A stretch of DNA of 44,447 nt from a virus (IMGVR_UViG_3300038856_000047:1-44447), one strand, 5' to 3'. Counted from the first letter of the stretch, positions 8,620-41,736 are shown. Numbers and translations: made by a program. The notes: a model not told the origin generated them from the sequence alone.

Positions 8620-9627
8620 ATGGCTCTACCGACAGCAGCATGGGTCACGTACTCGGCTGTTGGCATCCGCGAAGACCTGTCCGATGTCATTTACGACATT
8701 TCACCGACCGAGACTCCGTTTGTCTCGAATCTGCCGCGCGTGAATGCGAGCAATACGCTTCACGACTGGCAGATGGACAACCTCGCGGCTGCTAACACGG
8801 CGAACGCGGCCCTTGAAGGCGACGACCATAGCGGCGCCGCCCTCACTCCGACGCAGAAGCTTCGGAACTACACCCAGATTTTCCGCAAGGATATCGTGGT
8901 TACCGGCACCATGCGCGCCGTGAACCCCGCTGGCCGTGCGGATGAACTGGATTACCACACGGCCCGGACGGGCAAGGAACTGAAACGCGACATCGAGGCC
9001 GTTTTCCTGGAGGCGCATTCCGCCACCGCCGGCTCCGCTGCCACGGGTCGGGGGCTTGTCGGCGTGAAAGCGTGGCTGGGCAGTGCCTCGACCAACGGCA
9101 TTCAGTATCCGTATGCGAATGCCGGAACCTCGACCACGGGTGCGACCACGCCGGGGTTTGCTTCGGCCACGGGCCTGGTTACGACCGCGCCCACGGCTGC
9201 CTCGTCCGGCGGCACTCCCACCGTTGCCAACCTGAACAGCGTTATTCGGCAGGCTTGGACCAACGGCGGCGACCCGCGCACGGTTATGTGTGGGCCGTTC
9301 AACAAGACCGTGATTTCCGGCTTCACCGGCATCGCCACGCTGCAGCGTGACGTGAACGGACTGAAGCAGGGCGTCATCGTCGGTGCTGCGGACGTGTACG
9401 TTTCGGACTTCGGTGTTCATACCATCGTGCCGAACCGTTTCGCCCGTGAGGACACGATCTACGTACTCGATATGGAGTATTGGGCTAATGCCGAGTTGCG
9501 GCCCATGATGACCGTGCCGATTGCGAAGACCGGCGACAGCGACAAGATCATGATGCTTTCGGAAACGACGCTTGAGTGTCGTAACCCGTTTGCGTCTGGC
9601 AAGGTCGCTGATTGCTCGACCTCGTAA
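8620..9627 (+). CDS. Major capsid protein (DUF5309/SU10 type)
   Basis: 335 residues, HK97-fold coat protein. The start (ISPTETPFVSNLPR), IFRKDIVVTGTM, the inner helix (DYHTARTGKELKRDIE) and the end with LSETTLECRNPFA match the pattern of DUF5309 capsid proteins as in phage SU10. The gene has a good ribosome site (AGGAGAAAACGAG) and is closed by a terminator, consistent with high expression. A glycine/threonine/alanine-rich loop around residues 165-200 is a likely surface-exposed insertion. Confidence 0.92.
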   Translation: MALPTAAWVTYSAVGIREDLSDVIYDISPTETPFVSNLPRVNASNTLHDWQMDNLAAANTANAALEGDDHSGAALTPTQKLRNYTQIFRKDIVVTGTMRAVNPAGRADELDYHTARTGKELKRDIEAVFLEAHSATAGSAATGRGLVGVKAWLGSASTNGIQYPYANAGTSTTGATTPGFASATGLVTTAPTAASSGGTPTVANLNSVIRQAWTNGGDPRTVMCGPFNKTVISGFTGIATLQRDVNGLKQGVIVGAADVYVSDFGVHTIVPNRFAREDTIYVLDMEYWANAELRPMMTVPIAKTGDSDKIMMLSETTLECRNPFASGKVADCSTS

Positions 9628-9632
9628 ACGCA

Positions 9633-9666
9633 AGGGGGAGGGGGCAACCTCTCCCCCGCTTTTTTT
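9633..9666 (+). terminator. Rho-independent terminator after capsid gene
   Basis: A G-run/C-run hairpin (GGGGGAGGGGGCAACCTCTC then CCCC) followed by a GC dinucleotide and seven T residues. It sits six bases after the capsid stop and nine before the next start, and would reduce transcription of the downstream genes relative to capsid. Confidence 0.85.
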
Positions 9667-9675
9667 GAGGACTAC

Positions 9676-10002
9676 ATGCCGAAACGACTACTCGACTATG
9701 ACCCTCTCACGGGGCTGAAGACGTATCACGAATACGACTGGAAAGAGAAAAAGACCCTGATCGGCTACGAGCAGGAGGGGCTGGAAGATTTCTTTGCGTT
9801 AAACCGTCGCATGGGCGAACAGGTTGATGCGAAATACAAGAAGCGCGAAGCGTGGCACGCCGCGACCATCCCCGCTTACCTGATCGTCAAGTGGAAGCAG
9901 GAAGGCATCGACGTTTACAGCCCGCAGGATTACAAGCGGGTCGCCAAGAAACTGAACGACCCGGAATACGCCTTTCTCCGCACATGGAAGGGCCGTATAT
10001 GA
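9676..10002 (+). CDS. Hypothetical post-capsid protein
   Basis: 108 residues, beginning MPKRLLDYDPLTG and ending with a basic tail (YAFLRTWKGRI). Rich in Lys, Tyr and Trp. Similar short proteins commonly follow capsid genes in phages of this type, but their job is unclear. GAGGACTAC precedes the ATG. The stop overlaps the glycosyltransferase start (ATGA). Confidence 0.65.
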   Translation: MPKRLLDYDPLTGLKTYHEYDWKEKKTLIGYEQEGLEDFFALNRRMGEQVDAKYKKREAWHAATIPAYLIVKWKQEGIDVYSPQDYKRVAKKLNDPEYAFLRTWKGRI

Positions 10003-11393
10003 GCGCCATCGAAGCCTATGGCGAAATGCAGCGGCTTGCTTCCGAAGGCAGGGCGGATGAGCTGCTGGAATACGGCAACCGGGCGACGGACATGTATCCC
10101 GACAACCCGGATATCCTGTGCCTGATGGCCGCGGCTCATGCGGACAAGGGCAATCACTACATGGCGGGGCTGTTGTTCAGGCAGGTTCTTGAACTGTCGC
10201 CCGATGCCTACGAGGTGTGGAACAGCCTGGGGCGGGAATGGTCGAAGATTGCCGAGAATGTTCCCGAATATGAGGACAAGTGCCGGGAAGCTTTCGAGAA
10301 GGAAATCGACCTTCACCCCGATAACGCCAACCCCCATACGGGGCTGTCTTTCTACCATCTTCAGCGGGGGGAATTTGAGCAGGCCGGCGAGTGTGCCAAG
10401 CGGGCTCTGAAACTTGATCCAGAGGGTTCGGCCGGGGTGTTCAATCTTGGGATCGCCATGCTGGCCCTGCACATGTGGGAAGAGGGCTGGTGGGCCTACG
10501 ACCAGAACCTTGGTCCGCGCTACAACAACTCGCCCCCGCCGGACAGGTACGGCTTGCCGAAATGGGAGGGCCAGAAGGGCAAGGTCATCGTTCAGGCCGA
10601 ACAGGGCATGGGCGACGAAATCATGTTTTCGTCCATGATCCCGGACCTGAAGAAAGATGCGGACGTGATTATCGACACGGCCCCGCGTCTGAAGGGGTTG
10701 TTTGAACGGTCCTTCGGGTGCCCGACCTATCCAACCCGGTATGGCGACCCGCGTTACTGGCTGGCCGGCAGCGGCGCGGAATACTGGATACCGATGGGCA
10801 GTCTCGGGGCGTTCTATCGAACGAAAGCGGAGGACTTCCCCGCAACGCCGTATCTCAAGGCGGACCCGCAGAGGCGGCTACAGTGGCGGGCTCTGTTCGA
10901 CAGCATGGGCAGCAAGCCCAAGATCGGCATCGCCTGGAATGGCGGTGTGCCGGCGACAGGCAAGGTTCACCGCTCGCTCCGGCAGTTCGACATAGAACCG
11001 ATCCTTGAGTTCGACGCGGACTGGATCAACCTGGAATATAAAAAGGGGGAAAACCCGGATTGGGTGCATCTTTTCCCCCACGCCACGCGCACGCAGGATT
11101 ACGACGATACCGCGGCCCTGGTCGCGGAACTTGATCTGGTGATTTCCGTTACGACCGCGGTCATCCACCTTGCCGGCGCAATGGGTGTGAAAACATGGTG
11201 CATGGTTCCCGAGCGCCCGACATGGAGATACGGCACAAGCGGCGATCGGCTGCCCTGGTACGACAGCGTTGAACTCTTGCGGAAAGACGGTGCCTGGCCC
11301 ATCGAGGAAATCCGCCAGCGATTGACGAACATGGGGCTGTCGAAGACCGACCGGGCAGACCTGCACGCGCCGTTTATCCTTGAGGCTGCCTGA
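9999..11393 (+). CDS. TPR-containing glycosyltransferase (GT-B fold)
   Basis: 464 residues. Residues about 1-175 form tetratricopeptide-like helical repeats (for example NPDILCLMAAAHADKG and AECAKRALKLDPEG-type blocks). From about 185 a GT-B-like domain follows: VIVQAEQGMGDEIMF, IGIAWNGG and near the end SVTTAVIHLAGAMGVKTW then WRYG, the pattern of TPR-linked transferases related to GT9 and GT41. The donor sugar cannot be told. Such TPR proteins often modify proteins; GT9 enzymes act on LPS. The start overlaps the previous stop, and the longer frame to 9852 is only a shadow of the upstream gene. It belongs to a block of modification genes between capsid and tail genes. Confidence 0.85.
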   Translation: MSAIEAYGEMQRLASEGRADELLEYGNRATDMYPDNPDILCLMAAAHADKGNHYMAGLLFRQVLELSPDAYEVWNSLGREWSKIAENVPEYEDKCREAFEKEIDLHPDNANPHTGLSFYHLQRGEFEQAGECAKRALKLDPEGSAGVFNLGIAMLALHMWEEGWWAYDQNLGPRYNNSPPPDRYGLPKWEGQKGKVIVQAEQGMGDEIMFSSMIPDLKKDADVIIDTAPRLKGLFERSFGCPTYPTRYGDPRYWLAGSGAEYWIPMGSLGAFYRTKAEDFPATPYLKADPQRRLQWRALFDSMGSKPKIGIAWNGGVPATGKVHRSLRQFDIEPILEFDADWINLEYKKGENPDWVHLFPHATRTQDYDDTAALVAELDLVISVTTAVIHLAGAMGVKTWCMVPERPTWRYGTSGDRLPWYDSVELLRKDGAWPIEEIRQRLTNMGLSKTDRADLHAPFILEAA

Positions 11394-11878
11394 TGTGGCG
11401 GTGGGAGTGGATCGGCCATCTGGCGAAGGAACATGGCTGGAAGGTCGGGGCGGAAATCGGCGTTCTTGAGGGGCGGACCATCGCCTACCTGACGACGCTT
11501 GGCATTGCCATGATCGGGGTGGACCTGTGGAAGCCGCTGCACGACGCAGAGGAAACCTACGAACAGCACGACCTTGAGCGGTATTTCTCCGAACTCAAGG
11601 ACGCCCTGAAAGGCAGGGACGCAACCCTTCTCAGGATGGACACGGTAGAGGCGGCAGACCAGGTAAGGGACGGCGCGCTCGATTTCGTATTCATCGACGC
11701 GGACCATAGCTATGCCGGCGTGAAGCGGGATATCGAGGCGTGGACGCCCAAGGTGAGGAAGGGCGGGGCGGTGATGGGCCACGACTATGACCGCAAGGAC
11801 TCGGTGGCGAAGGCGGTTGACGAGGCGTTTCCGGAAATCACCGAGGGTCCGAACAAATGCTGGCTCGCATGGAAGTAG
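11393..11878 (+). CDS. Class I SAM-dependent methyltransferase
   Basis: 161 residues. SAM-binding motif GAEIGVLEGRT at 19-29, then IGVDLW at the second strand, and FIDADHSYAGV (100-110) with KGGAVMGHDY, the signature of the Methyltransf_24 group, many of which methylate sugars or small molecules. Short for the family but with all core strands. Lies between two glycosyltransferases with overlapping ends, so probable target is a glycan or its acceptor (inference). Confidence 0.85.
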   Translation: MWRWEWIGHLAKEHGWKVGAEIGVLEGRTIAYLTTLGIAMIGVDLWKPLHDAEETYEQHDLERYFSELKDALKGRDATLLRMDTVEAADQVRDGALDFVFIDADHSYAGVKRDIEAWTPKVRKGGAVMGHDYDRKDSVAKAVDEAFPEITEGPNKCWLAWK

Positions 11879-12570
11879 TGTTCTTTTACGTCAACCGTGC
11901 GGGCGACGACGTGTTGGCCCGGATCATGGTGGATTCGGTACGGGAGCACATGCCAGGCGTGCCGATAACCCAGTTGACGGACATGATTACCGGGGAAGTG
12001 CCGGGCGTGGATCACGTTATCCGCCGGAAGCCGGAGCCGGGCATCATGTATTTCCGGTCCTGTCACATGGCCGAATACCGGCATACGGCGGCGATTTTTC
12101 TGGATCACGACACGGTGGTTCTGAAGGATTTGAGCCCGGTGTTCGACGAGCCGTTCGACGTGGCGTTGACGACCCGGAAACGGAACCTGTTTGTCGACGA
12201 AGTTCCCGACCTTATCGACCCGCATGAGAACGCGGCGGACAAGATGCCGTACAACATGGGCGTGATTTTCTCCCGGTCCACGAAGTTGTGGGAAGACCAT
12301 CGGTTGCTTCACAAGCAGACCGGCGAAACCGGACGGCAGTGGTACGGGGAACAGATTGCCCTCGCGAACCTGCTGGCGGCAGGGCGGTACAAGGTGAAGG
12401 TGCTGCCAGAGGATTACAATTATTCGCCGTCCATGCCGCTTGAGAACGTCGAAAACCGGGCGGTCCTGCATTTCAAGGGGCCGGTACGCAAGCAATGGAT
12501 GGTGCAACGGTACAAGACCTGCATCCGGTCTATGGGGGCGCTAAAGAATGTCGATCACCACACATGCTGA
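11857..12570 (+). CDS. Glycosyltransferase, GT-A type (GT8-like)
   Basis: 237 residues. GT-A features: an N-terminal strand MEVVFFYVN, the metal/nucleotide-binding DHD within FLDHDTVVLKDL (81-92), and a late LHFKGPVRK, where the histidine of the HFKG motif typically binds the metal in GT8-like enzymes. Start at 11857 fits the GAGGG ribosome site; Met at 11869 is an alternative. It overlaps the methyltransferase upstream and the adaptor gene downstream, so it is translated with virion genes. Donor and acceptor unknown. Confidence 0.8.
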   Translation: MLARMEVVFFYVNRAGDDVLARIMVDSVREHMPGVPITQLTDMITGEVPGVDHVIRRKPEPGIMYFRSCHMAEYRHTAAIFLDHDTVVLKDLSPVFDEPFDVALTTRKRNLFVDEVPDLIDPHENAADKMPYNMGVIFSRSTKLWEDHRLLHKQTGETGRQWYGEQIALANLLAAGRYKVKVLPEDYNYSPSMPLENVENRAVLHFKGPVRKQWMVQRYKTCIRSMGALKNVDHHTC

Positions 12571-13225
12571 ACTGCTGACCGCGGTTGCCGATTATCTCGG
12601 GGCGCGCGGCACCGACCTTGCCTCGGTCGACGATGATTTCGTTCTGCTATGCGAGGCACGGCTGAATTACGGGAATGCCGATCCGGACCCGAGGATTCAA
12701 TCGCCGGCCCTGCGCTGCCGGGAGATGGAGCAGCGGGCGACCGCGACCGCGACCGGGGAATTCATCGCGTTGCCGTCTGATTACCTCGCCATGAAGGCTC
12801 TCAAGCTGACCGGGACATCGCCTCCGCGGCAGTTGAAGGCCATGCCGAAGGAAAATTTCGATTCGCTGCTGGATACGTCGCTGGGAGGAACGCCGGTTTG
12901 GTACGAAGTCATCAACAATGAGATCAGGTTGGCGCCGATCCCCACATCTTCCGCACTGGAAGTCCTGTATTACAAGAAAATACCGGCCCTGGTATCGAAC
13001 GACCCGAACTGGCTGTTGTCCGACCATCCGGGAATCTATCTTTACGGCACGCTTTTTGAGGCGGCTCTATACATCAAGGAAAACAGCGACGTAGAGCGGT
13101 TTGGCCGGCAATTTTCCTCCCTTGTGACGGGGTTGAACAACATGGAGGAAGAGGGCGCCCACGCCTCTCCCCTCGTGGCGCGCAGCGAAGTGCGGGCAAT
13201 CAGCAATTATTATGTGAGGGGCTGA
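12548..13225 (+). CDS. Head-tail adaptor protein (SU10-like)
   Basis: 225 residues. The pattern ITTHAELLTAVADYLGARGT at the start, RCREMEQRATAT, LPSDYLAMKALKL, and YYKKIPAL with the C-terminal helical LFEAALYIKEN segment match adaptor proteins that bind below the portal in SU10- and P22-like phages. Interleaved between glycosyltransferase genes with overlapping ends on both sides. Confidence 0.75.
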   Translation: MSITTHAELLTAVADYLGARGTDLASVDDDFVLLCEARLNYGNADPDPRIQSPALRCREMEQRATATATGEFIALPSDYLAMKALKLTGTSPPRQLKAMPKENFDSLLDTSLGGTPVWYEVINNEIRLAPIPTSSALEVLYYKKIPALVSNDPNWLLSDHPGIYLYGTLFEAALYIKENSDVERFGRQFSSLVTGLNNMEEEGAHASPLVARSEVRAISNYYVRG

Positions 13226-13956
13226 TGAAAGTCTTTATCGGCTGGGACCCGCGCGACCATCAGGCGTATTGCACGGCCGTTCACAGTCTCCGGGCGAACA
13301 CGAATGCGGCTGTCGAGATATACCCGATTATCGAACGGGATTTGCGCGCAGCCGGATTGTACTGGCGCACGTTTCACGTGGAACAGAACGGCCAGATGAT
13401 CGACAACCTCGATGGCAAACCGTTCAGTACGCAGTTTTCGTTCACCCGGTTTCTTGTGCCGGAACTCATGGAATTCGCTGACGAGTGGGTGCTGTTCATC
13501 GACCCGGACGTGATGTTTCGGGCGGACATCGAGGAACTGTTCGGCCTGATCGAACCGGACAAGGCCATCATGTGCGTACCGCATACGCAGGTGGTGAAGG
13601 AAGCGATCAAGATGGACGGCGTTCGGCAGGAAAACTACCTGCGGAAAAACTGGTCATCGGTCATGGCGGTGAACCCGGCCCGTTGCCAGGCAGCCACGCG
13701 GATGCTGGTCAATAACGCTTCCGGCTCGGAATTACACGCCCTGCGGTTTGTCGATGACAGCATGATCGGCTTTCTGCCCGAGGAATGGAACTGGCTGGAA
13801 AATTATTCCGACGCCGATATGAAACCCAAGCTGGTGCATTTCACCCGAGGCACGCCGGATATGATCGGGGGAACGATGTACGCGGAGGAATGGTGGCAGA
13901 ATTATGACCACGCCAACGTAGGCTATCCGTTGTTCAGGCCCCGGAACAATGCCTAA
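13225..13956 (+). CDS. Glycosyltransferase, GT-A type (second)
   Basis: 243 residues. N-terminus KVFIGWDPRDHQAY is the typical start of phage and bacterial GT8-like transferases. The DPD motif in FIDPDVMFRAD (91-101) is the metal and nucleotide-sugar site, and LVHFTRGTPDM near the C-terminus supplies the histidine. Distinct from the transferase at 11857 at sequence level but of the same general fold. Start overlaps the adaptor stop and its end overlaps the tail gene. Confidence 0.85.
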   Translation: MKVFIGWDPRDHQAYCTAVHSLRANTNAAVEIYPIIERDLRAAGLYWRTFHVEQNGQMIDNLDGKPFSTQFSFTRFLVPELMEFADEWVLFIDPDVMFRADIEELFGLIEPDKAIMCVPHTQVVKEAIKMDGVRQENYLRKNWSSVMAVNPARCQAATRMLVNNASGSELHALRFVDDSMIGFLPEEWNWLENYSDADMKPKLVHFTRGTPDMIGGTMYAEEWWQNYDHANVGYPLFRPRNNA

Positions 13957-15400
13957 AATTGACATCGGGGAGTGGCTTCCCGACCTGTCGCCCATGGAGG
14001 GTTCGCAGGTTATCCAGAACGTGAAGCCGCTTGGCAACGGATACAAGGAGCTTGAAGCCGGCGAGGTCGTTACCAATGCCCTGACAGCGAGGGTACAGGG
14101 GTTCGGCACGGCTCAAAACACGTCCGGTCAGTGGTTTTCCTATGCCGGAGACAGCACAAAACTTTATATGTCATCCGCCAATACGTGGACTTCCGCCGGC
14201 ACGGGGTACACGCTCGGGGATGCGGAACGGTGGGAATTCGTCAACTTCCGGGGCGTTATCATTGCCTTGTCGAAAGGCGAGGAACCCGTAGAGGACACCG
14301 CGGGCGCGGGAACGTTCGCCACCTTCATGAGCTCGACCAAGAAGCCCAAGGCGGCGCAGGGGGCGATTGTCAAATCCCATCTCGTATTGGGCAATTATAA
14401 CGACGGCACGGAGTACCTGAACGGCGTTATCTGGTCGAGTTCGACTGACTACACGGATTTCGATCCCGATACCCAGACCGGCTCCGGTGCCCAGTATCTC
14501 GAATCCACGGGCACTGTTCAGAGAATCGTCGGGGGTGAATACGGCACGATTTTCCTGGACGACTCAATCTGGGTGATGACCTACGAGGGGCCGCCCACGC
14601 TGTTCCGCTTCGACAAGGTGGCGGATAACGTGGGTGCGCTCGGGGGCGGGAGCGTCATCAACCTGGGGAGCACGATTTACTTCCTGTCCCTGGACGGGTT
14701 TTGGGCGCTCACGGGTTCGGAACTGCGCAGGATCGGCCAGAACAAGATTGATGAATACGTTTTGGCGAACCTGGACCGAACGAATCTCGACCGGATTTCG
14801 TCAGTCGCGGAGGCAAAAACAGGGCTGATTTACTGGTCCTATCCGTCTTCATCCGGCAACCCTACGAACATCGTTATCTATAACCCCCACCAGGGCAGAT
14901 GGAGTTACGCGACATTCGAGCATGAGCTTCTTGTCAAGGACCGGACCAAATCCATCACTCTGGACGATGCGACGTGGGGGAGTTTTTCTCTGGACGCCCC
15001 GGCGATTGCCTCCCTGTCGGTGGATGCGCCAAGGTTCCTCGGGGGTGTGTCCCAGATCGGTCATTTCGACACTGCCCACAGAACGCAGCTCTGGACGGGA
15101 ACCGGGCGCACCGCGACCCTGGATACGCCCGAGGTCCAGTTTTTCGAGGGCGGCAGGGCCTTTATCAACAAGGCCCGCCCCTATGTAACCGGGAGCGATG
15201 CCTCTATCACCGTGGCAGTAGGAACGCGGGAGCAACTTTCGGATACGGTCAGTTACGGGACCGCCGTCGCACCGAATTCGTTCGGCGAGGTTCCCCTGCG
15301 GTCTTCGTCGAGATTCATGACGTTCCGGACTGTCATATCGGGGGGATTTGACGAGACTCTTGGTATCGAGGTCGAGCCGATCCCGGCGGGAGTCAGATGA
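13949..15400 (+). CDS. Tail hub / DNA stabilisation protein (P22 gp10-like)
   Basis: 483 residues, beta-rich throughout. Starts MPKIDIGEWLPDLSP and contains repeated blade-like segments (IFLDDSIWVMTYEG, IYFLSLDGFWALTGSE, IVIYNPHQGRWSYA), the pattern of beta-propeller nozzle or packaged-DNA stabilisation proteins below the adaptor. Position after the adaptor supports this. Overlaps the glycosyltransferase upstream by 8 nt. Confidence 0.75.
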   Translation: MPKIDIGEWLPDLSPMEGSQVIQNVKPLGNGYKELEAGEVVTNALTARVQGFGTAQNTSGQWFSYAGDSTKLYMSSANTWTSAGTGYTLGDAERWEFVNFRGVIIALSKGEEPVEDTAGAGTFATFMSSTKKPKAAQGAIVKSHLVLGNYNDGTEYLNGVIWSSSTDYTDFDPDTQTGSGAQYLESTGTVQRIVGGEYGTIFLDDSIWVMTYEGPPTLFRFDKVADNVGALGGGSVINLGSTIYFLSLDGFWALTGSELRRIGQNKIDEYVLANLDRTNLDRISSVAEAKTGLIYWSYPSSSGNPTNIVIYNPHQGRWSYATFEHELLVKDRTKSITLDDATWGSFSLDAPAIASLSVDAPRFLGGVSQIGHFDTAHRTQLWTGTGRTATLDTPEVQFFEGGRAFINKARPYVTGSDASITVAVGTREQLSDTVSYGTAVAPNSFGEVPLRSSSRFMTFRTVISGGFDETLGIEVEPIPAGVR

Positions 15401-15726
15401 CATTCCCCGCCCTCCGGGTTCTGCCGAACGCGGACATAAATTCACAGCGCATGGTTCGCGCGATCAACCTGGTTCTTTCCGGCAAGGTCAACTCTACGGG
15501 CACAGTTACGCTCGCTGTTTCGCCGGCCACGACAACGGTTATTACGAACGCCTTTCTGTCTCCGGACAGCCTTGTCCTGTTTGATCCCATGACGGCAACC
15601 GCTGCCGGGCTCGACGGCGCGGGCCTGTTTGTCCTGGAAGCGAACAGGGGAACCGGATCATGGACGATCACGCATGAAGCAAGCGCGGCCGCTGATCGCA
15701 AATTCAGGTATGTGGTGCTGGGATGA
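15397..15726 (+). CDS. Small virion-associated protein
   Basis: 109 residues, beta-strand and Thr/Ala/Val-rich. The ending (GTGSWTITHEASAAADRKF then YVVLG) matches a small phage protein widely found in structural operons, sometimes as a fibre or decoration domain. No enzyme motif. Start overlaps the tail hub gene. Confidence 0.65.
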   Translation: MTFPALRVLPNADINSQRMVRAINLVLSGKVNSTGTVTLAVSPATTTVITNAFLSPDSLVLFDPMTATAAGLDGAGLFVLEANRGTGSWTITHEASAAADRKFRYVVLG

Positions 15727-26946: not shown

Positions 26947-27270
26947 TCAACTCTCCATTCCCGTCATCTTCGCCAAAGCCTTTTCCTTGGCGTTCAACTT
27001 TCGTTTGCGTAGCCCGTCCTGCTTGCGGATACGATTGACCTTGGCCCGGTCCTTCGCCTCTCTGGTTGTCTTGTCGATGTGGTGGCGGGGGAGGAGTGCC
27101 TGCAGATTGTCTGGCGTATCCTCGCCGCCAAGCCAGAGCGGGACGATGTGGTCGAAATGAACGTCGCGCGGATCGGTGAACTTCTCGCCGCAGGGACAGG
27201 CGCACTTGCCGTCCTGCCGAGCAATGATCTCGGCCTTGGTTTTGAGAGAAAAGCTGCGGCGGGTTGTCAT
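26947..27270 (-). CDS. HNH endonuclease
   Basis: 107 residues. An HNH core with CACPCGEKF, DHIVPLWLGGED (D40-H41), NLQALL at N55 and HHIDKT, a standard beta-beta-alpha metal finger. Cuts DNA. In phages such proteins assist packaging or recombination, or are free-standing homing enzymes. Here it sits in the recombination cluster, so a role there is possible. Start at MTTRR (27270), overlapping the NinB stop. Confidence 0.85.
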   Translation of the reverse strand: MTTRRSFSLKTKAEIIARQDGKCACPCGEKFTDPRDVHFDHIVPLWLGGEDTPDNLQALLPRHHIDKTTREAKDRAKVNRIRKQDGLRKRKLNAKEKALAKMTGMES

Positions 27271-27656
27271 GCCACCCTCTGCTGTTCTTCCGGCAGGGTC
27301 AGGTAGACGCCCATATCCCCCACCAGCCTGCGATAAATCCGGTCCATGAAATCCTGCATTTCCTGCTTGGTCAGATCGGACGTTGAGCGCCGCTCGTAGG
27401 CCACGCCATCGAGCACAATCCGCTTTTTCGGACAGTCGCATATCTCCTTGACCACCTCGGCCATGTCGTCCTTGTCGTAGCCGCAGTGTTGTCCGGCTTC
27501 CTCCATCCATTTCCAGAACAGCGCGTTCTGCGACAGGCTGCGCCGTTGTGCCGGCCGCTTGACCGTCACCCGCCATGGCCTCGACAGATCGAGCGCCTTG
27601 ATGAAGGCGATCAACTGCGCCCGGTCGGCGTCGGTGACGAGGGGGATGGGTTTCAT
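27267..27656 (-). CDS. ninB: NinB-like recombination protein
   Basis: 129 residues. RRSLSQNALFWKWMEEAGQH and the following CGYDKDDMAEVVKEIC fit the NinB (YbcN) family of single-strand DNA-binding recombination mediators. Located next to SSB and an ERF-type annealing protein, which together form a single-strand annealing recombination set. Overlaps neighbours on both sides. Confidence 0.85.
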   Translation of the reverse strand: MKPIPLVTDADRAQLIAFIKALDLSRPWRVTVKRPAQRRSLSQNALFWKWMEEAGQHCGYDKDDMAEVVKEICDCPKKRIVLDGVAYERRSTSDLTKQEMQDFMDRIYRRLVGDMGVYLTLPEEQQRVA

Positions 27657-28093
27657 CAGAACGGGATGCTATCGTTCAGATCTCCCCCGCCCGTAGCTGC
27701 GTTCTGAGCGGCCTTCTCCTCTTCGGGCTCGTGGGTATCGGAAACAGCGTCAAGCGCCTGTAGCACCCCCTTAAACGGCGATATGACAACTTCCGTGCTG
27801 TATTTCTCTGTGCCGGACTGGTCGGTCCATTTCCGCGTCTGGATTTTGCCCTCGATATAGACCTTCGAGCCTTTCTTGAGGTATTTTTCCGCGAAGGCGA
27901 CGGCGTTTTTGTCGAACACCACTACCCGGTGCCACTCCGTCTTTTCCTTCCGCTCGCCGGTGTTCTTGTCTTTCCACGATTCCGAGGTGGCGATAGACAG
28001 GTTGGCAACTGGGCTGCCGTCCTGCAGGGTGCGGATTTCCGGGTCTCGCCCAAGATTGCCTATCAACATCGCGCGGTTTAAACTTGCACTCAT
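27656..28093 (-). CDS. ssb: Single-stranded DNA-binding protein
   Basis: 145 residues. OB-fold start MLIGNLGRDPEIR, central TEWHRVVVFDKNA and YIEGKIQTRKW match bacterial-type SSB. The acidic C-terminal tip (DLNDSIPF) is the peptide that recruits host repair and replication proteins. Protects single strands in replication and annealing recombination. Start overlaps the upstream HNH stop. Confidence 0.93.
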   Translation of the reverse strand: MSASLNRAMLIGNLGRDPEIRTLQDGSPVANLSIATSESWKDKNTGERKEKTEWHRVVVFDKNAVAFAEKYLKKGSKVYIEGKIQTRKWTDQSGTEKYSTEVVISPFKGVLQALDAVSDTHEPEEEKAAQNAATGGGDLNDSIPF

Positions 28094-28602
28094 TTAGGGA
28101 CTCCTTTTCGGATAGCGTCTTCGCGTCGGTGAAGGCGTGTATGTCCTGCTCGTGTTAAAAGAGCTAAATTATCGGGGGAATTGTTTCGCCGGTCCCCATC
28201 AATATGATGGACACATTCATCAGGAAGGATATGTCGCCCGATACGTTTTTCCATCAAAACAACGTGGACGAGTCGCCCTTTATTCGGCCCACGGGTGAAT
28301 TCAACATAACCATTTGGCTTAACAGATGTGCCACGAGCGTTCGCGTCGGCCCATTTAATACGGGCATTGCGAATATTGTTTTTCCACGCGGTCGTAAAAT
28401 GCCTCGTTTTTCCGAGCGCGTGTTGTCCCAAAACATCGCGGCGGAGGCGGACCCCCTCGGCGCGCGAGCGCATTTCGACACCGGCGTGTACTAAAATGCC
28501 GCGAACGCGACTTCGGGGATAGGACATAAGAGCAGCAATTTGAGGTATGCTTTTTTTATCCTCTACATACAGCCCAATTACCTTGTTTACCGAACCTGCC
28601 AT
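28090..28602 (-). CDS. HNH homing endonuclease (HNH_3 type)
   Basis: 170 residues. N-terminal HTH-like part (IPQIAALMSYPRSRVRGILV) and C-terminal HNH core: CVHHIDGDRRNNSPDNLALL with H132-H133, then HTRLHRR. Typical of free-standing homing nucleases. It lies between ssb and erf, a usual insertion point. Overlap with ssb suggests it has become part of the operon. Confidence 0.8.
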   Translation of the reverse strand: MAGSVNKVIGLYVEDKKSIPQIAALMSYPRSRVRGILVHAGVEMRSRAEGVRLRRDVLGQHALGKTRHFTTAWKNNIRNARIKWADANARGTSVKPNGYVEFTRGPNKGRLVHVVLMEKRIGRHILPDECVHHIDGDRRNNSPDNLALLTRAGHTRLHRREDAIRKGVPK

Positions 28603-38698: not shown

Positions 38699-38712
38699 CG
38701 TGCGAGGTGCCG

Positions 38713-40383
38713 ATGGCGATTCTCAGCCGTGTGCTGGCCGAGAGCGACCGGCAGGAACGCGAAAAGCTGAAAGCAGCCGAATACACACGGCTGGTCCCTG
38801 TCAAAGAAGTTACGCTGGTTCAACCGGACGGCACGTATAAGCTCGACGTGCGTTCGGTCAGCCATGACGGCATGGGCGCCGTTGAGGTATATTTCCGCGC
38901 ATGGAAGGACGGCGTTCCGGTTGGGTTCGGGGCTGACGGCAGCGTCGAGATCGAGCGGTATCACGCCCTCAACCCGCCGATCATGGTGCGCGACGACGTT
39001 AACGGCACCTACGTTATCGACAAGATCGACCGCGACACCGGCAGGAAGATCGGGGAGCGGAAATACCGGGAAGCGCCGGTAGAGGTGCTGTATATCAAGC
39101 TGCTGGGTGTTGTCCGGCGGTTTGGCAAGGGGCCGCAGAACATACAGCCCGGCAAGGTCGGGCGGTCAACCATCCAGCGATTCCCCAGCGCCGGTACTGG
39201 AACCGCACCGACGGACGGCGAGCTGCTTACCGACGACGGCGCGGGCACGACATGGGCGGACCTGCACGACGCGGCGGCAGCGGACATCCTGACGCAGACG
39301 TTTACCGGCTCTCTGGCGCAGATTCGCGCGACCGCGGGCGGCGCATGGCGGCAGATCACCCGGTTTTACGCGCAGTTTGACACCTCGGCCATCGGTGCCG
39401 GCACGGTTACGGCAGCGGTTTGGACGCTGCGCGGCGACGGAAACGCGGTGAACAACAGTTTCAGCGCCTCGATGAATGTTGTTGCGTTTTCGCCCACGGA
39501 TGAGGACAGCATAGCGGTCGGCGATTACGACCTGTTCGGCACGACCGTTTTCTCGACCAAGGCCATATCCGCGTGGGACACGACGGACGGTAACGATAAC
39601 GACTTCACGTTTACCGATCTCAGCGGAATTAACGGCTCCGGTATTACCAATCTCGGGCTGCGCGAGAGCAACGACCGTGCGGATGCCGAGCCGAGCATCA
39701 CCGGCAGCGAGCGCAGCAAGGTCACGTTTTATGCGGCTGACAATGCCGGCACGACCGATGACCCGGAGCTTAATGTAACGTATACGGCGGCGGGATCGAC
39801 CGTCGCCCCCGGTAAAGACGATCTGGTTATTACCGGCCTGGCCCCGACCGCGATTGAGGCAAAAGTACAATCGCCCGGTAAAGATGACCTTGTTATCACG
39901 GGGTACGCGCCGTCGATCGCGGGCGCAGATTTAACCGTCTCTCCCGGCAAGGATGACCTGGTTATCGCGGGGCGTGCGCCACTTGCAGCGCTCCAAGTGG
40001 TTACGCAGCCGGGCAAAGACGACCTGGTAATTACGGGTCACGCCGCCACGGCGAATTCTGGTCTGAATGTCCAGCCCGGCAAAGACGATCTCGCGATTAC
40101 GGGCGCCGCGCCTTCCGCAATTCTGGCGGCGGTCGCGAACCCCGGCAAAGACGATATTGTTATCACGGGGCTTGCCCCGACTACGGCGGTCGGTTTAGGC
40201 GATACGGTGGTAGCGCCGGGCAAGGGGGATTTGTCGCTTACCTTATTCGCGGCAACCATAGCTGTTGTGGCATCGGGTTGGACAAAAACCACCGATGACA
40301 CGGCAACATGGACGGATACGACCGACGCGAGCGACATCTGGTCAGACACAACGGACAATTCGGCGACATGGACCAGCGCATAG
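38713..40383 (+). CDS. Repeat-bearing virion protein
   Basis: 556 residues. N-terminal domain (VLAESDRQEREKLKAAEYTR, HALNPPIMVRDDVNGTYVID) is followed by a Ser/Thr-rich beta region, then seven tandem repeats of about 22-25 residues with the core PGKDDLVITGLAP (positions about 365-520), and a Trp/Thr/Asp-rich end (TDDTATWTDTTDASDIW). Repeated Ser/Thr-rich beta units are usual in tail fibres or spikes. The start at 38713 follows GAGG; GTG at 38707 is in frame. The two downstream genes are a methyltransferase and an MAF-type transferase, so it may be their substrate (inference). Confidence 0.7.
   Translation: MAILSRVLAESDRQEREKLKAAEYTRLVPVKEVTLVQPDGTYKLDVRSVSHDGMGAVEVYFRAWKDGVPVGFGADGSVEIERYHALNPPIMVRDDVNGTYVIDKIDRDTGRKIGERKYREAPVEVLYIKLLGVVRRFGKGPQNIQPGKVGRSTIQRFPSAGTGTAPTDGELLTDDGAGTTWADLHDAAAADILTQTFTGSLAQIRATAGGAWRQITRFYAQFDTSAIGAGTVTAAVWTLRGDGNAVNNSFSASMNVVAFSPTDEDSIAVGDYDLFGTTVFSTKAISAWDTTDGNDNDFTFTDLSGINGSGITNLGLRESNDRADAEPSITGSERSKVTFYAADNAGTTDDPELNVTYTAAGSTVAPGKDDLVITGLAPTAIEAKVQSPGKDDLVITGYAPSIAGADLTVSPGKDDLVIAGRAPLAALQVVTQPGKDDLVITGHAATANSGLNVQPGKDDLAITGAAPSAILAAVANPGKDDIVITGLAPTTAVGLGDTVVAPGKGDLSLTLFAATIAVVASGWTKTTDDTATWTDTTDASDIWSDTTDNSATWTSA
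39808..40270 (+). repeat. Seven in-gene tandem repeats
   Basis: Coding repeats with the core PGKDDLVITG start about every 66-75 bases from 39808 to 40216. The last copy (PGKGDLSLT) is divergent. Spacer residues between cores vary while the core is kept, so the copies have diverged under protein-level constraint. Confidence 0.85.
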
Positions 40384-40907
40384 ACAGGGAAATCGCCAAA
40401 TATGAGGCGGTTTGGTCATTGTCGGACTACGCGAAATGGTCGCCGGGCGAAACCTACGCACATTTATTGCCTGAATTTGTACCGCCGCCGGCTGATGTGA
40501 TTGATATTGGGTGCGGTAACGGTGCCGGGGGCCGGGCGTTGAAGGCGCTGGGTTACAACGTGCGTTTCCTGGACATTGTTTGCGTTACGGATGAACGGCC
40601 TTTTATCCAATCGGCAATATGGGAGTGGAAACCCCGCAAGAAATATGGCGTCGGGTTTTGTTGCGACGTTATGGAGCATTTACCGACCGAGTATGTCGGT
40701 CTATCGCTGGATCGTATAAAGCACGGCTGTACGGCGTGTTTGCTCTCGATAGGGTTAACGCCGGATCATTTCGGTGCGCGTATCGGGGAAACGCTACATT
40801 TGACGGTTAAGCCGTTTTATTGGTGGCGTGATTTTCTCGACGAATTCGGTGATGTAGAGGACGCCCGGGATTTGCTGCACACGGGGTTGTATTTTGTCCG
40901 GTTCTGA
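40368..40907 (+). CDS. SAM-dependent methyltransferase
   Basis: 179 residues. SAM motif I VIDIGCGNG at 44-52, then VRFLDIV and CCDVMEHLP for the next strands, a class I small-molecule methyltransferase. The start overlaps the previous gene by 16 nt. It precedes an MAF-type transferase, so a sugar methylation role is likely (inference). Confidence 0.8.
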   Translation: MDQRIDREIAKYEAVWSLSDYAKWSPGETYAHLLPEFVPPPADVIDIGCGNGAGGRALKALGYNVRFLDIVCVTDERPFIQSAIWEWKPRKKYGVGFCCDVMEHLPTEYVGLSLDRIKHGCTACLLSIGLTPDHFGARIGETLHLTVKPFYWWRDFLDEFGDVEDARDLLHTGLYFVRF

Positions 40908-41736
40908 ATGGTCGGCAAGAAAGCAGCTCGACGCTTTAGGCTTTCCCCCGGCGCAGTTAAATACGGCGCACGAAGATATTTTATCGAATATCACGCAGTC
41001 GATCAGGCGGGGTTGCCGACAAATCCGGCCAATGCAGCCGAACAATGAACAGGTTGTCATTGTCGGCGGCGGGTGGAGCCTGGACGAAACGTTCGAGGAG
41101 TTGCAGCAACTGTACTGGAGCGGCGCGAAGGTTGTTGCCTTGAACGGCGCCGGCCATTGGCTGGAAGAACGCGGCGTCAAGGTTTCCGCCATTGTCGTTA
41201 TGGATGCGCGGCCTTTCAATGCGCGGTTTATCGAGGGGTTGCGCAGCCCTAATTGCAAGGTGTTCCTGGCGAGCCAATGTGCGCCGGAACTGTTCGACGC
41301 GGCGGAAGGGCGGGAAACGTATATTTACCACGTCCTTTCGACCGACACGGAAGCGGAAAAGGCCATTCTGGATGGGTATTACGTCAATAACTGGCATGGC
41401 GTCCCTGGCACATGCTGCGTAGCGTTTCGCGCGCTGTGCCTGTTTCGGCTGTTAGGCTTTCAGAAGTTCCATATTTTCGGTGTGGATAGCTGTTATCGCG
41501 ATGACGGCAAGCATCATGCGTACAGCCAGCCCGAAAACGACGCGGAAACCACGGCAAAGATATCCGTGGGCGGCCGGGAATTCCTGGCGTCCGGCTGGCA
41601 AGTTAACCAGGCTGTATGGTTCATGGAGCTGGTTAAAAAAGAGGGTAGCAAGTTCGACCTGGCTTTTTACGGCGATGGGATGATCGCGCACATGGTCAGG
41701 ACGGGCGCGGCGATGGAGCGAAAAAATGGCTGCTAG
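40894..41736 (+). CDS. MAF/DUF115-type glycosyltransferase-like protein
   Basis: 280 residues. VIVGGGWSLDE at 55-65, VALNGAGHWL (81-90), VVMDARPFN (101-109) and FGVDSCYRDDGKHHAYSQ are the motifs of DUF115 / MptE-like proteins, which include motility-associated factors that attach nonulosonic sugars to flagellin and pterin pyrophosphokinases. With a methyltransferase and structural proteins as neighbours a glycan role is more likely. Start is TTG at 40894, overlapping the upstream stop by 14 nt. Confidence 0.75.
   Translation: MSGSEWSARKQLDALGFPPAQLNTAHEDILSNITQSIRRGCRQIRPMQPNNEQVVIVGGGWSLDETFEELQQLYWSGAKVVALNGAGHWLEERGVKVSAIVVMDARPFNARFIEGLRSPNCKVFLASQCAPELFDAAEGRETYIYHVLSTDTEAEKAILDGYYVNNWHGVPGTCCVAFRALCLFRLLGFQKFHIFGVDSCYRDDGKHHAYSQPENDAETTAKISVGGREFLASGWQVNQAVWFMELVKKEGSKFDLAFYGDGMIAHMVRTGAAMERKNGC

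Follow-up and report, generated by a model that had tools for sequence, protein, structure and literature searches.

Four genes for sugar-decorating enzymes sit amid the particle-building genes of an uncultured podovirus, represented by a single record of 44,447 bases (the window, meaning the whole stretch of DNA that was analysed), and the presence of the same set at the same place in many distant phages suggests that the particles of these viruses are coated, by the viruses themselves, with a methylated glycan. Gene content, homology, fold, conservation of catalytic motifs and recurrence at the same operon slot were observed directly; from these we infer a protein acceptor, its identity as a virion protein, the order of steps, the sugars and the co-expression of the genes. 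That the four enzymes constitute one cytoplasmic glycosylation pathway decorating a virion protein, likeliest the major capsid protein or one of the head or tail proteins next to it, is considered probable, with real room for doubt.

In the proposed pathway, the tetratricopeptide repeat (TPR) superhelix of the protein encoded at 9999-11393 would hold the acceptor, while its GT-B domain would transfer the first sugar to serine or threonine, as FlmG does on flagellin; two GT-A enzymes would then add more sugars from host nucleotide sugars, and a Methyltransf_24 enzyme would O-methylate, or cap, the sugar chain.

Organisation of the island

The genes of the island and its borders are as follows.

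8620-9627, plus strand: SU10-type major capsid protein (PF17236, 9e-87)
9634-9657, plus strand: intrinsic terminator 3' of the capsid gene (10-bp stem, then a T run)
9676-10002, plus strand: small conserved gene (phrog_3982), directly before the adaptor in transferase-free relatives
9999-11393, plus strand: TPR plus GT-B transferase (TPR-GT), FlmG-like by Pfam TPR matches, homology and predicted structure
11393-11878, plus strand: SAM methyltransferase (MT; Methyltransf_24, 2e-15)
11857-12570, plus strand: GT-A transferase 1 (GT-A1), glycogenin-like (Glyco_transf_8, 5e-5; DxD, HxKG)
12548-13225, plus strand: SU10-type head-tail adaptor (PF24175, SU10_adaptor, 1e-27), inside the cassette
13225-13956, plus strand: putative GT-A transferase 2 (GT-A2), GT8-like (Glyco_transf_8, 9e-6; phrog_28018, 4e-49)
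13949-15400, plus strand: nozzle/stabilisation-type virion protein closing the island (phrog_3287, 3e-59)

An earlier note, made from the sequence alone, had described three transferases, a methyltransferase and an interposed adaptor in this region, and all of these open reading frames were recovered where it had placed them. Its gene-end overlaps of 1-23 nt are likewise accurate, comprising 4 nt (9999-10002), 1 nt (11393), 22 nt (11857-11878), 23 nt (12548-12570), 1 nt (13225) and 8 nt (13949-13956), and the capsid terminator that it reported is real; the 'tail hub' that it placed at the far end is instead the phrog_3287 nozzle/stabilisation-type protein. The portal of the window also belongs to the SU10 family by Pfam.

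With a strong terminator ahead of the island, and no sigma-70-like promoter found within it on its own strand, transcription probably enters by reading through the capsid terminator. Late expression, on which the earlier note had built part of its argument, is no more than an inference, in view of that terminator, the lack of a detected promoter and the presence of a related cassette beside replication genes in other phages. The G+C content and GC3 of the island resemble those of adjoining genes, so nothing marks it as newly acquired from elsewhere, and a search of the island against phages at the DNA level returned no match.

The TPR-linked glycosyltransferase

In the TPR-GT, a single soluble protein, an N-terminal TPR region is joined to a C-terminal GT-B domain, the architecture of FlmG. 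Pfam identified TPR matches only, as did NCBIfam among its families, and an AlphaFold model (pLDDT 92.6) found its best Foldseek matches in SPINDLY (SPY) and O-GlcNAc transferases (OGT), at 2e-10, with whole-chain TM-scores of just 0.3-0.4 and ∼12% identity; differing domain orientation is perhaps responsible for the low scores. Of the families listed for profile searches in the earlier note, GT9 and GT41 were compared with this enzyme: the window protein itself is unmatched by the GT9 profile (Glyco_transf_9), which matches 7 of 32 relatives (best 2.8e-5), while GT41 gave no Pfam sequence match and the resemblance to GT41 enzymes, the closest in fold, is one of fold only. The EQGMGDE motif reported in that note begins at residue 201, with EQGxGD invariant across 32 relatives and a C-terminal His and Gly nearly so. 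By homology and predicted structure the TPR-GT is FlmG-like, and it is the proposed starter of a glycan on a protein acceptor.

The methyltransferase and the GT8-like enzymes

The remaining motifs of the earlier note, DHD (GT-A1 residues 83-85), DPD (GT-A2 residues 93-95) and GAEIGVLEGRT (MT), are also present, and the other two families that it listed for profile searches, Methyltransf_24 and GT8, are matched as follows. Methyltransf_24 matches MT with 57.9 bits (curated cut-off 26.3) and is matched by 12/12 members of the MT alignment, one of which also weakly matches TylF, a family of sugar O-methyltransferases; it is proposed that MT would O-methylate the glycan. The Glyco_transf_8 match of GT-A1 falls just under the cut-off and that of GT-A2 exceeds it. 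In GT-A1 both Asp residues of the DxD motif and the HxKG residues are invariant in 22 relatives, and the model adopts a glycogenin-like fold (Foldseek, 6e-11); in GT-A2 one Asp of the DxD is kept by all of 25 relatives and the other by nearly all, 12 of the 25 match the GT8 profile, and a conserved His/Gly motif is also present. Both enzymes fit CAZy family GT8, GT-A1 by profile, fold and DxD and GT-A2 by profile and DxD.

LgtC and WbbM, for example, are GT8 enzymes that act on lipid-linked glycans, a precedent (WbbM being itself a weak profile match) for enzymes that alter host lipopolysaccharide, capsule or exopolysaccharide in the manner of serotype conversion. This role is decidedly unlikely here, as the genome encodes no GtrA-type flippase, the cassette has neither a membrane-spanning partner nor a membrane anchor, and the TPR-GT family is linked to protein glycosylation.

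Recurrence of the cassette in other phages

The nearest relative found, a 45.3 kb contig (L004), carries all island genes in the same order, with 39-58% identity between island proteins, 70% for the capsid protein and 43% for the nozzle protein. This full synteny, together with recurrence in many other phages, indicates from sequence comparison that the set of four enzymes is not a chance one. Placement of the adaptor among the transferases, to which the earlier note drew attention, is real in the window and in L004, the only two phages where it was seen; elsewhere the cassette lies upstream of the adaptor. A separate 109-aa protein of the window (15397-15726) aligns with the C-terminus of a 598-aa L004 protein (L004:14004-15800), possibly a tailspike whose C-terminal domain stands alone in the window.

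When viral contigs were scanned with TPR-GT and GT-A2 alignments, the enzymes were found together on one strand in many divergent phages; an alignment query was needed, the scan with a single TPR-GT protein having found nothing. Clustering of the viral TPR-GTs at 60% identity gave 33 clusters, with an adaptor gene downstream of the TPR-GT in 24; among the other nine, the L104 and L120 sequences stop at the cassette or shortly beyond it. The order TPR-GT, MT, GT-A1, GT-A2 is found in nine loci (L115, L116, L117, L118, L121, L122, L138, L148 and L178), eight of which have an adaptor gene after the cassette, the exception (L117) ending within GT-A2. L115 encodes a portal (phrog_156) and a head protein (phrog_334) of families other than SU10, and its cassette nonetheless lies between head genes and adaptor. 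Two tandem adaptor genes stand behind the transferases in L105 (8140-9370), and in L195-L260 (for example, L199 1712-4827) a GT-A2 homologue is followed by a ∼750-aa protein matched by the MT profile, perhaps a multi-domain enzyme.

The small gene directly adjoins the adaptor in transferase-free relatives, and in MW202711 and MW202496 the gap between the two holds a different, GT2-like transferase (L090 7302-7931, L091 2367-3011). Such a substitution would be expected if the slot simply tolerated insertions and the cassette were cargo, its position uninformative on the target; we judge this quite unlikely, because the cassette has been retained, with its catalytic residues conserved, in deeply diverged phages, and because the unrelated gene found in that slot likewise encodes a sugar transferase.

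Evidence against a virion target comes from a separate phage group (L124-L181) with the gene order GT-A1, GT-A2, TPR-GT. In L134 (8369-11137) the cassette lies beside primase, Sak4-like and Cas4-like genes, and a cassette of this kind can therefore exist apart from virion genes. The TPR-GTs of this group fall elsewhere in a quick tree than those of the adaptor slot, which suggests that the replication-side cassette was captured independently. Proximity to replication genes and a DNA methyltransferase in other phages is the setting anticipated for transferases that glycosylate hydroxymethylated phage DNA; this is highly improbable for the window, whose genome has no member of the thymidylate-synthase/hydroxymethylase family, and the TPR architecture suits a protein acceptor.

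Bacterial homologues

Each of the 76 bacterial loci fetched contains a homologue of the GT domain alone; the loci are not independent, many deriving from related betaproteobacteria. A Caulobacter homologue (L336), a 606-residue TPR-GT adjoining flagellin genes, is similar to the published FlmG in its size, domain layout and gene neighbourhood; the window TPR-GT shares 31% identity with it (456 aa), and the GT domain alone 35% over 253 aa (9e-31). FlmG is a proven flagellin O-glycosyltransferase, the TPR part of which binds flagellins (PMC7591256). Homologues in Nisaea (L316) and Ferrovibrio (L334) lie downstream of flagellin genes and of flbT- and flaF-like genes, as identified by eye. A type IV major pilin gene is present in 15 of the 76 loci, always within 1.3 kb of a TPR-GT, and GT-A2 homologues occur among TPR-GT genes in the same bacterial clusters. 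In the quick tree, TPR-GTs of the adaptor-slot phages have the pilin-linked branch as their neighbour (support 87-94), and grouping with flagellin-linked members was not seen, at moderate support. FlmG is not the closest branch, and the acceptors of the bacterial homologues, FlmG excepted, are deduced from neighbouring genes.

The association of the nearest bacterial homologues with type IV pilin genes, and of others with flagellin genes, accords with a cassette that glycosylates host pilin or flagellin during infection, leading to a superinfection block or a changed receptor. This explanation is unlikely, as the adaptor gene marks a slot within the virion operon in 24/33 clusters, the replication-side version is confined to other phages, and the position by the adaptor suggests late action, when a change of receptor gains little.

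Decoration of the phage's own particle is the reading pursued here. The protein, probably virion, acceptor proposed in the earlier note is strengthened by FlmG-like homologues beside flagellin and pilin genes, by recurrence of the slot, by the SPY/OGT-like fold and by the missing flippase and membrane anchor; the interpretation given in that note is supported in part.

Candidate acceptors

Because the cassette lies within the virion operon, a virion protein is its probable acceptor. A Ser/Thr-rich stretch spans capsid residues 154-207 (nt 9079-9240), and in an exploratory comparison Ser/Thr residues there number 12-16 in four other transferase-bearing phages versus 9.2 ± 1.9 in 37 without transferases, a difference (p ∼0.001, uncorrected) that takes no account of kinship and concerns a region picked after the window protein had been viewed. 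In a scan along the protein, the capsid signal is centred on residues 111-220 and is weaker from ∼81; no Ser/Thr enrichment was found in the adaptor, nozzle, portal or small-gene proteins of transferase-bearing phages. The Ser/Thr-rich capsid loop may be taken, as a hint only, for a weak candidate glycan acceptor. The more specific version of the proposal, that a pilin- or flagellin-type TPR glycosyltransferase, acquired by podoviruses and fixed directly upstream of the adaptor with two GT8-like extenders and an O-methyltransferase, puts a methylated glycan on this loop, is doubtful as it stands; if true, the heads of these phages, largely uncultured ones, are glycosylated.

Elsewhere in the window, a second likely modification pair is present at 40308-41736, in which a methyltransferase (40308-40907) overlaps an MptE-like protein (40894-41736; PF01973, 1e-14), a domain also found in Maf flagellin glycosyltransferases. 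The MptE-like gene was rejected as part of the cassette, being absent from 20 cassette- or TPR-GT-bearing records. Just upstream of the pair, a protein with repeated PGKDDLVITGxAP units (38707-40383) looks like a fibre or surface protein, and two HNH endonuclease genes occupy 26947-28602 on the minus strand.

Comparison with known systems

Glycosylation of phage-particle proteins has been reported for a few mycobacteriophages. The structural operon of Corndog (cluster O) includes gp35-gp38, an O-methyltransferase, two glycosyltransferases and a putative N-acetylglucosaminyltransferase (PMC4351075), and modification of the capsid and tail tube is reported for phages of the Corndog type (Freeman 2023, cited in PMC11600133). 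One methyltransferase and three transferases within a structural operon are common to Corndog and the window, whereas in Corndog, a siphovirus, these genes are placed between portal and protease. No mycobacteriophage is named among the matches listed for the island proteins in a phage collection that lacks the Corndog record; the cassette may represent a variant of phage virion glycosylation with the make-up of Corndog, no relationship having been detected within that scope. A similar gene order is found in MW202512 (Podoviridae ctDrO704, Manatee Spring), where capsid, small gene, TPR-GT, methyltransferase, GT8-like enzyme, adaptor and stabilisation protein follow the order of the window, differing in an inserted HNH-type gene, a methyltransferase annotated as FkbM and a GT-A1 that was not found.

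Caulobacter FlmG shares with the TPR-GT an N-terminal TPR region, a C-terminal GT-B domain and a cytoplasmic location; the phage TPR-GTs differ in forming a separate branch, nearer to pilin-associated homologues, and a nonulosonate synthesis gene was not identified among the proteins scanned. SPINDLY and OGT (GT41) are alike in having a TPR superhelix followed by GT-B, and stand apart by the low identity, missing family match and low TM-scores given above. No literature linking FlmG-like proteins to phage particles was found. The cassette would provide a type of enzyme that recognises its acceptor in a proven way, through the TPR domain, and would connect phage particles with the glycosylation of bacterial pilins and flagellins; if the proposal holds across podovirus lineages, virion glycosylation is far commoner than reported.
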